Shown piece by piece: positions 60,633-64,000 of a stretch of 64,000 nt of DNA. Numbering within the stretch: the first letter of the stretch is position 1; each line of letters opens with the position of its first letter. A program made the translations under genes and the position numbers. This DNA comes from Myrmaecium sp. VS I D KN 1 (Eukaryota > Ascomycota > Dothideomycetes > Valsariales > Valsariaceae): NCBI GenBank assembly GCA_019775845.1, contig JADQAV010000035.1:146138-210137 (forward strand), in the 5' to 3' direction. Below the pieces are notes generated by a model, which ran no database searches, was not told the DNA's origin, and saw only the letters and a list, made by a program, of their open reading frames with translations.

Positions 60633-62432
60633 ATGGCCACCGAAGTCCTTCCGCGATCCCAGCAGCAGCCGGACATCGCGTACGCCCCCGACTGGGACAA
60701 GTACCAGGCCCGCACGGCGCGGCGGCTGGCGACGGAGCAGCTCGAGACCACCCTGCCGGCCGGCTTCCCTGTCCAGCTGGAGGGTGAGCTGGTCTGGGAC
60801 GGCGACGGGCTGGCGGAGACGTACAACTGGACGTATGTGCTGAGTGAGCAGCAGCTGGAGGAGATCGAGCGGGCGCTGCAACACTTTAAATGTTTGTCGT
60901 TTGCTATACTTTCCTTCTCCTTCTCCTTCTTCTTCTCCTTCTCCTTCTCCTTCTCCTTCTCCTTCTCCTTCTCCTTCTCCTTCTCCTTCCCCCTTTACGG
61001 CTCTCACTCTCTCTTTGCCTCTCCATTACACTGACCAGAAGAATCTCCACCCACATCACAGCGCTCGACCTCCCCCTCTCCCGCATCGGGCAAGCCACCT
61101 TCCCCCTGCCCACCCTGCACGCCGAGCTCCGTCGGCTCTCGCGGGAGTTGCACGAGGGCCACGGCTTCTTCGTGCTGCGGGGGCTGGACCCGACGCGGCA
61201 CTCGCGGACGGACAACATCGCCCTCTTCGCCGGGGTATCCGCGCACGTCGCGCCGATCCGGGGGCGGCAGGACCACCGCACGCACGACGGCAGCGGGCGG
61301 CCCGTGGCGGCCGCCGTGGTGCTGAACCACATCACCGACCTGCGCGGGACGGCGGCCGGGTCGCGCATCGGCGCCCCGGCCTACACGGCCGACCCGCAGG
61401 TCTTCCACACCGACAGCGGGGATGTGGTGGCGCTGTTCGCGCTCGAGACGGCGGCCGAGGGCGGCGCGAGCCGGCTCGCGAGCGCCGCGCGCGTGTACAA
61501 CGAGTTGGCCGCCAACCGGCCCGATCTGGTGCGTACGCTGAGTGAGGGCTGGATCGCGGATCGGTGAGTGTTCCTTTTTCTTCTTCTTCTTCTTCTTCTT
61601 CTTGCCTTTCTTCTCCTGGCCGCGGGGGCTGGGCATATTCAACGGCCGTTATTAGAGGGATTTGAAGAGGAGGAAGAGGAGAGGAGGATGAAGAGAAGGG
61701 AGAGACGGAAAGGGGAGACCAGGAAAGAAGTCACTACCGCCTCCTTGTCGGCAGAGCCACCCAGTCAGTCACTAACAAAACCCGTTCCCACAGCGTCTCC
61801 GCCCACAACAACACTAACAACCCACCCACACCCACACCCACGCCCCTACTCATCCACCTGCCCGCCGCGCAGGAGAAGGTGGAGGACGGCAGCAGTAGCA
61901 GCAGGAGCAGCAAGACTTCCCCCTCGCAGCGGATCGTGCTGCAGTACGCGCGACGGACGTTTACGGGTTTCGGGGCGCTGCCGCGCAATCCCGCCGTGCC
62001 GGCCATCACCGAAGCCCAGGCCGAAGCCCTGGACGCGATGCACTTCCTGGGCGAGCGGTTCGGGCTTCGGCTCGACTTCCGCCGGGGGGACGTGCAGTAC
62101 GTGAACAACCTGGCCGTCTTCCACGCCCGGGACGGGTTCGTGGATCGGGGAGAGAGGCGGTGCGTCGTCGTTTTCCACCTTCCCCTTTCTATTTCCCCCA
62201 TCTGACTTGGTCTCTTGCTAACCTTTCGAGGCCGGGTAGGAGACATCTCGTCCGCTTGTGGCTGCGGGATCCGGAGTACGCGTGGGAGACGCCGGAGGCG
62301 TGGCGGGAGCGGTGGGAGGGCGTGTATGGGACGGATCTTGCGGGGGACTTTGGGGCGGGCGTTGAGGAAGTCCTTCCCCTCGAGCCGTATGTGAGGGGCG
62401 CGGCGGATGGAGGGATGCGGAAGACAGCGTGA
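60633..62432 (+). CDS. TauD/TfdA-type 2-oxoglutarate-dependent dioxygenase
   Basis: Exons 60633-60891, 61062-61563, 61794-62159 and 62240-62432 sum to 1320 nt (439 aa). The Fe(II) facial triad is present: His202 and Asp204 in 'QVFHTDSGDV', and the distal His at about 378 in 'RRHLVRLWLRDPE', which also supplies arginines for 2-oxoglutarate. 'HGFFVLRGLDP' and 'VQYVNNLAVFHARDGF' are family signatures of the fungal TauD-like group. A Ser-rich insertion (about residues 285-300) sits between them. Introns 1 and 2 are unusually long and built from CTTCTC and TTC repeats. The family oxidises sulfonates, carboxylates or specialised metabolites; the substrate is not evident. No signal peptide, so cytosolic. 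Confidence 0.88.
60905..60992 (+). repeat. CTCCTT microsatellite inside intron 1 of the dioxygenase
   Basis: Roughly 14 hexamer units make up half of the 170-nt intron 60892-61061. Splice signals flank it outside the repeat. Confidence 0.85.
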
Positions 62433-63358: not shown

Positions 63359-63970
63359 ATGGTCTCCTTTACCATCCCCCGGCTCAGCAGTAGGAGCAGC
63401 AGCAGCAGCCGACGAAGCAGCACTACGCCTCGCCACGGCGTGGCGCAAGAAGTGCTCCGCGCCCCGGCGTCCGCCGACGACGCGGCCTCGGAGGAGTCGA
63501 GCAGCAGCGGCAGCGTGATCATCAGGGATGGCGATTTGGCCTTCACGCGCGAGCAAGGGGGCAACGACTCCCAGCCGTCGTACCAGGAGGCGGTGGGCGC
63601 GCCCGTGGAGCGGGAGAGCCCGCTCGGCTACCACGTCCACTGGTTCACCATCATCTTCCTGAACGTGGGCATGATGATCGGGACGGGAGTGTTCAGCACG
63701 CGTGAGTAGTCCATCTATACCATCCAAGGCCGTCTTCCAACCCTAGGGTTTTCAGCAAAACTCACTCACCCCCGTCCCCAGCCGCCTCGATCCTCGAAGC
63801 CACCGGCAGCGTCGGCCTCTCGCTCGTCTACTGGGTGATCGGGTTCGTGATTACGGCGGCCGCCCTGGCCGTCTACCTCGAGCTGGCCGCCTACTTCCCC
63901 AACCGCAGCGGGTCGGAGGTCGTCTACCTCGAGCAGGCCTACCCGCGCCCGAAGCACTTCTTCCCCATCG
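63359..63970 (+). CDS. LAT/Mup1-type amino-acid permease, truncated by the telomere
   Basis: Exon 1 63359-63701, intron 63702-63781 (GTGAGT…CCCAG), exon 2 from 63782. The leader of about 95 residues is Ser-rich and cytosolic, then TM1 reads 'HWFTIIFLNVGMMIGTGVFS', spliced to 'TPASILEATGSVGLSLVYW', TM2 'VIGFVITAAALAVYLELA' and the loop 'FPNRSGSEVVYLEQAYPRPK'. These match the start of fungal high-affinity methionine (Mup1) and LAT-type permeases of about 520-600 aa and 12 TM. Only about 177 residues remain. After 'KHFFPI' the next bases are the telomere repeat, so ten membrane segments are missing. It cannot be a working transporter. Coding quality is intact up to the junction, which suggests the loss is recent or that the break lies in the assembly. 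Confidence 0.85.
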
Positions 63971-64000
63971 GGTTAGGGTTAGGGTTAGGGTTAGGGTTAG
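63970..64000 (+). repeat. telomere repeats (GGGTTA)n
   Basis: Five uninterrupted copies of the TTAGGG-type repeat occupy the last 31 bases, G-rich strand running 5' to 3' toward the end, as expected for the right end of a chromosome. TTAGGG is the usual telomere unit of filamentous ascomycetes. Confidence 0.95.

Follow-up and report, generated by a model that had tools for sequence, protein, structure and literature searches.

The window analysed here is a stretch of 64,000 nucleotides that corresponds to positions 146138-210137 of contig C26 in the assembly of Myrmaecium sp. VS I D KN 1 (25.66 Mb in 66 contigs). As C26 is 210137 bp long in total, window base 64000 is also the right-hand end of the contig, here termed C26R. 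At this end the coding sequence of a putative methionine-like permease passes without interruption into a short array of telomere repeats, and the features concerned are collected in Table 1.

Table 1. Features at the right-hand end of contig C26, in window coordinates.
Feature	Position	Strand	Description
Open frame next to the permease gene, on its inner side	61666..62202	+	Partial TauD/TfdA-type dioxygenase domain; Pfam TauD profile positions 193-261 of 267, E 3.2e-9
Exon 1, Mup1/LAT-type amino-acid (methionine-like) permease	63359..63701	+	ATG and open frame up to a GT donor
Intron, 80 bases, GT-AG	63702..63781	+	Spliced frame continues to align with relatives on either side
Exon 2, cut mid-exon after ...YPRPKHFFPI	63782..63969	+	In frame and conserved to the final codon before the repeats
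Telomere array, (GGGTTA)5G	63970..64000	+	Perfect 31-base repeat that closes the contig

The permease fragment comprises 177 codons, with a frame that is open from the ATG at 63359 through 63969, and a match to the Pfam family AA_permease_2 (profile positions 3-79 of 427). Permeases of other fungi make up its relatives; most have 570-615 residues, many are named as high-affinity methionine permeases in their source records, and the nearest are spread over several fungal classes (best 120 of 759 matches); among the best 20 of the 759, identity is 66-77% over 74-85% of the fragment. A PAF-acetylhydrolase likewise has its nearest relatives in several classes, whereas RPC2, encoded on the same contig, is closest among named proteins to that of the Dothideomycete Coniosporium apollinis (82%), with an unnamed protein at 84% (best 120 matches). 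These proteins place the fungus no more narrowly than Pezizomycotina, perhaps close to the rock fungi of the Dothideomycetes. The TM1 region is conserved with full-length relatives, and an alignment with 14 of these places the last matching residues at the ten that close exon 2, agreement ending at the junction with the repeats. The fragment covers approximately the first 30% of the length of the relatives, which continue for a median of 439 further residues (range 305-498), and about 70% of the protein is absent. Frame, Pfam match and alignment together uphold the sequence-only reading of this locus as a Mup1/LAT permease gene with a spliced intron, a conserved TM1 and a cut in mid-exon.

That reading had also placed (GGGTTA)5 at the end without any spacer, and this holds in the slightly longer form (GGGTTA)5G, with the junction at 63969/63970. 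A 12-mer of the repeat gave 4 matches, a count that was reached by 0 of 100 shuffles, and when bases 63970-64000 are translated in the permease frame they give Gly-Leu repeats free of stops. The possible homology in a short G-run at the junction has to be narrowed. When the residue following the junction was scored in the best 120 relatives listed, 6 of which were dropped for not matching the motif used, the remaining 114 had Ala (80), Thr (32) or Ser (2) at this position and in no case Gly. As Gly is found in 0/114 relatives, the junctional GGG codon probably does not belong to the original gene. The telomere seed is therefore probably at most one G, the first base of an Ala codon, so that a single shared base at most survives from the suggested G-run. 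A direct join of repeats to unique DNA through a presumed seed of this size lies within the 0-4 nt range taken here to characterise chromosome healing.

The repeat at the end of C26 is canonical, and its G-rich strand points outward, a polarity from which we take the contig end to be a chromosome end. In this respect it is one of a class. Searches with repeat probes of two lengths (24-mer and 16-mer), which shorter or more degenerate arrays would escape, located arrays at no fewer than 28 contig ends, with the G-strand outward in 28/28; C64 is the sole contig with an array at both ends. The shared polarity is a strong argument that these are real ends as a class, and falls short of proof for the single junction on C26. 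It bears directly on the possibility that telomeric reads were joined to the unfinished end of a contig, whether during assembly or in the library. Array length speaks for such a chimera, being exactly 31 bp at 15/28 ends and 25-32 bp at 24/28, so that it looks like a limit set by the assembly rather than the true length of the telomeres. However, false joins would have no polarity bias, and the chance that s of them all face the right way is approximately 0.5^s; moreover, nothing closely resembling the absent permease segment was found on another contig. Given the uniform polarity of the 28 terminal arrays, we consider a chimera improbable.

Two further features of the arrays were recorded. 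At 14/28 ends the unique sequence closes with a C where it meets the array (expected 8.75, P 0.027), a count in which the junctions at the degenerate-repeat ends C24L and C55R were placed by rule. In Pyricularia, C is noted at five of the six MoTeR junctions that lack a seed (PMC7367193). We dropped the excess of C as a candidate feature, as a P value of 0.027 is too weak to build on. Separately, C13 (1.05 Mb) has, near its left end, TTAGGG tracts that face inward (L038:215-240, and in L039 at C13:7921), possibly representing an old telomere that has become internal.

The fate of the distal part of the gene was approached with a full-length relative, P0001, compared with the whole 25.66 Mb assembly. 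Its N-terminal part aligned at the end of C26 with 69 and 74% identity, and for the rest of the permease it recovered on other contigs only paralogs on C24, C54 and C64, at 26-39% identity, on which basis the idea that the remainder lies on another contig was rejected. A genome-wide Pfam search gave 21 matches to AA_permease_2, some of them limited to its C-terminal half, including those at C28:74268, C64:412197 and C17:288304; these C-terminal matches were not picked out by P0001. From these comparisons we infer that the distal piece was probably lost from the chromosome rather than left unassembled.

The sequence preceding the array is unique in the genome. The terminal 1520 bp before the repeats matched only itself, as did the final 1.47-1.52 kb at four other ends that resemble C26R (see below), in a search that passes over simple repeats and words of very high frequency. 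An origin of these ends by duplication, or by capture of a copy from the interior, was accordingly rejected, and the uniqueness of the five flanks fits simple truncation. A related possibility is that the broken end acquired its repeats by recombination, copying the telomere of another chromosome without the involvement of telomerase. Pyricularia provides a documented precedent, in that failing ends there have captured other sequences (PMC8381367), and copying that started within pure repeats would be traceless. Against this, nothing derived from other ends lies between the gene and the repeats at C26R, and no terminal family is available that would be common to the ends. When the 28 ends were compared all against all (over 9-10 kb for 20 ends and about 2.4-2.5 kb for eight), no shared subtelomeric family was common to them; there were 18 matches of 34-265 bp, confined to some of seven ends (C5R, C15R, C18L, C42L, C43L, C49L and C65R), and a subtelomeric family common to all ends was rejected. 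Capture of this kind thus appears very improbable at C26R. Least credible of all is an interstitial origin, in which a short GGGTTA tract had entered the gene and the contig was interrupted at that point by the assembly. Internal repeats of 16 bp or more do occur at three sites (C11:192946, C13:215 and C13:7921), but the reversed 16-mer used as a control also has 4 matches in the genome, so that such tracts are not clearly above background. The assembly yielded no partner contig of the kind expected, with repeats of opposite polarity and the remaining permease sequence, and no host sequence follows the repeats, the contig ending at the array.

The C26 end had been viewed as an isolated case, but it is one of five ends that lack a cap. 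The ends fall into two classes, which were separated by a score that starts from the junction and adds 1 for each A or T and subtracts 1 for each G or C, within 2300 bp: the AT-rich cap measures 109-2111 bp at 23/28 ends and 0-3 bp at 5/28. The cap-less, or bare, ends are C26R (where the score gives 3 bp), C10L, C42L, C53R and C61L. Under a stricter cut, in which the AT score has to exceed the 95th percentile found at random positions in the window, 21/28 ends qualify, the capped ends C22L and C55R falling just short. The five bare ends also have the highest terminal 200-bp GC content, at 0.60-0.69, with the next end at 0.52; among the 28, C26R ranks first at 200 bp and third, second and second at 100, 500 and 1000 bp, respectively. 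On the scale of the window, GC is at least 0.60 in 35.9% of 200-bp pieces, and random positions have a median AT score of 2. The bare ends therefore look like ordinary interior DNA.

What the caps consist of is relevant to how the two classes arose. Terminal pieces containing stretches that recur within the approximately 0.27 Mb of end DNA compared were found at 6/28 ends, all of them AT-capped (C5R, C15R, C24L, C43L, C49L and C65R), with C43L having the most, at 430 of 531 bp. The AT-rich tips of C43L (L022), C5R (L010), C49L (L024) and C65R (L033) partly recur some kilobases inside C42L (L021), and these stretches are likely to be decayed dispersed repeats. The presence of repeat relics in some caps weakens a simple origin of caps by ageing, and a missing cap may thus signify a missing repeat element rather than youth. 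A subtelomere built around a telomere-linked helicase was also rejected. Of the assembly's 81 Helicase_C matches just one, about 12.7 kb in from C34L, is less than 20 kb from one of the 28 ends, and no helicase family stands beside the ends; the earlier statement that the C26 end has no subtelomeric helicase is in agreement with this.

Recognisable genes meet the array at three of the bare ends, encoding the permease at C26R, an O-methyltransferase at C10L and an F-box protein at C61L. At C10L (L014:1-468) the methyltransferase frame reads away from the telomere and opens inside the array; it matches Methyltransf_24 (E 3.7e-10) and also Methyltransf_3, and its homology begins at residue 19, some eight residues after the array. 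The first ATG of this frame is at residue 66, inside the domain match, and an ATG present at the junction itself is in a different frame from the methyltransferase. The start of the gene and its promoter side seem to be missing. At C61L (L030:28-600) the F-box frame (F-box-like, E 2.6e-6) runs in the direction of the telomere, and a TAG within the repeats terminates it. The situation at the remaining two bare ends is less distinct. C53R has a frame of 82 residues, with no recognised domain, that reads away from the array; a HET-domain frame (L026:6637-9498) begins 294 bp inward, separated from the array by a short frame, and a cut gene may be present here also. At C42L the nearest coding-like frame, which has no Pfam domain, ends 334 bp from the tip. 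An NCBIfam scan of five frames from four bare ends returned weak matches to one frame, far below the cut-off.

It should be noted that genes may lie near a telomere at other ends too. At C9R a stop-free frame of 1611 residues (L013:4111-8943) is located 0.6-5.5 kb from the telomere and contains carnitine acyltransferase, asparaginase and class II tRNA-synthetase domains in tandem; it is either a fusion or an accident of intron-poor adjoining genes. Since these genes are also near a telomere, the closeness of gene and telomere is not in itself proof of recent loss.

Taken together, the direct junction, the probable seed of at most one base, the lack of a close distal match in the assembly and the correct polarity of the array are best accommodated by terminal truncation of the chromosome, healed by de novo telomere addition, and we assign this explanation of the C26 end a probability of roughly 0.83. 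The sequence-only reading had arrived at the same event, with everything distal lost, and the junction, seed, absent distal match and polarity support it, the loss following by implication. According to this explanation, the chromosome would have broken, or eroded, within the permease gene. Telomerase would then have extended the bare end, adding repeats directly in mid-exon, a step that we propose on the precedent of Pyricularia and Zymoseptoria, and the distal tip of the arm, including the remainder of the permease gene, would probably have been lost. The absence of an AT cap, along with the intact reading frame, suggests that the truncation at C26 may be recent, and we infer likewise that the bare ends are recent truncations.

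Events of this kind are documented in other fungi. The Pyricularia reports cited here describe 19/24 de novo telomeres on truncated rDNA ends that grew from seeds of 1-4 nt (PMC7367193), and the eviction of AVR-Pita by terminal truncations in Pyricularia (Magnaporthe) oryzae, which those authors would rather attribute to telomeres that fail and wear down than to internal breaks that recur (PMC8381367). The end of C26 resembles these cases (PMC7367193, PMC8381367) in having TTAGGG placed directly on what is probably a truncated end, through a presumably short seed and with a probable loss of the distal sequence. It differs in that the Pyricularia truncations were tracked in known strains and were often tied to MoTeR or rDNA, whereas that of C26 is read from one assembly, in which a selection of 30 terminal ORFs scanned with Pfam has ordinary host domains or none. 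In Zymoseptoria tritici, the portion of the report considered here describes new telomeres at breaks in delta-kmt1 mutants, and places 13/28 analysed breakpoints of duplicated regions in genes (PMC6510446). TTAGGG at breakpoints, many of them within genes, is the feature shared with C26, but the Zymoseptoria case concerns a mutant without H3K9 methylation. The simple subtelomeres of Neurospora crassa, for which the excerpt cited describes no repeat class common to telomeres and an AT-rich, RIP-marked stretch of about 2 kb before the first gene (PMC2596135), are similar to the 23/28 ends that are AT-rich before the first gene, and differ from C26R and the four other ends that have no AT-rich stretch.

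The two classes of end invite a more far-reaching idea, that chromosome ends in this fungus are disposable and carry a clock. Loss and healing within genes would occur repeatedly, each bare tip would gain an AT cap that dates its truncation, and 5/28 ends would have been remade in a recent burst; at C26R the permease promoter would now fire toward the telomere and yield a non-stop transcript bearing UUAGGG. We regard this as doubtful, the repeat relics in some AT caps making it less likely. The healing of a broken or eroded end by telomere addition is, by comparison with the fungi above, an event of known kind, and it appears to have affected several ends of one genome.

The end of C26 offers a clean natural case in which a telomere interrupts a gene, the seed probably having been close to nil. 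Beyond this single junction, the contrast within one genome between 5 bare and 23 AT-capped ends bears on how new chromosome ends mature and on how often fungi lose the tips of their chromosome arms. If the bare ends are recent, sister isolates would give the rate of arm-tip loss directly.
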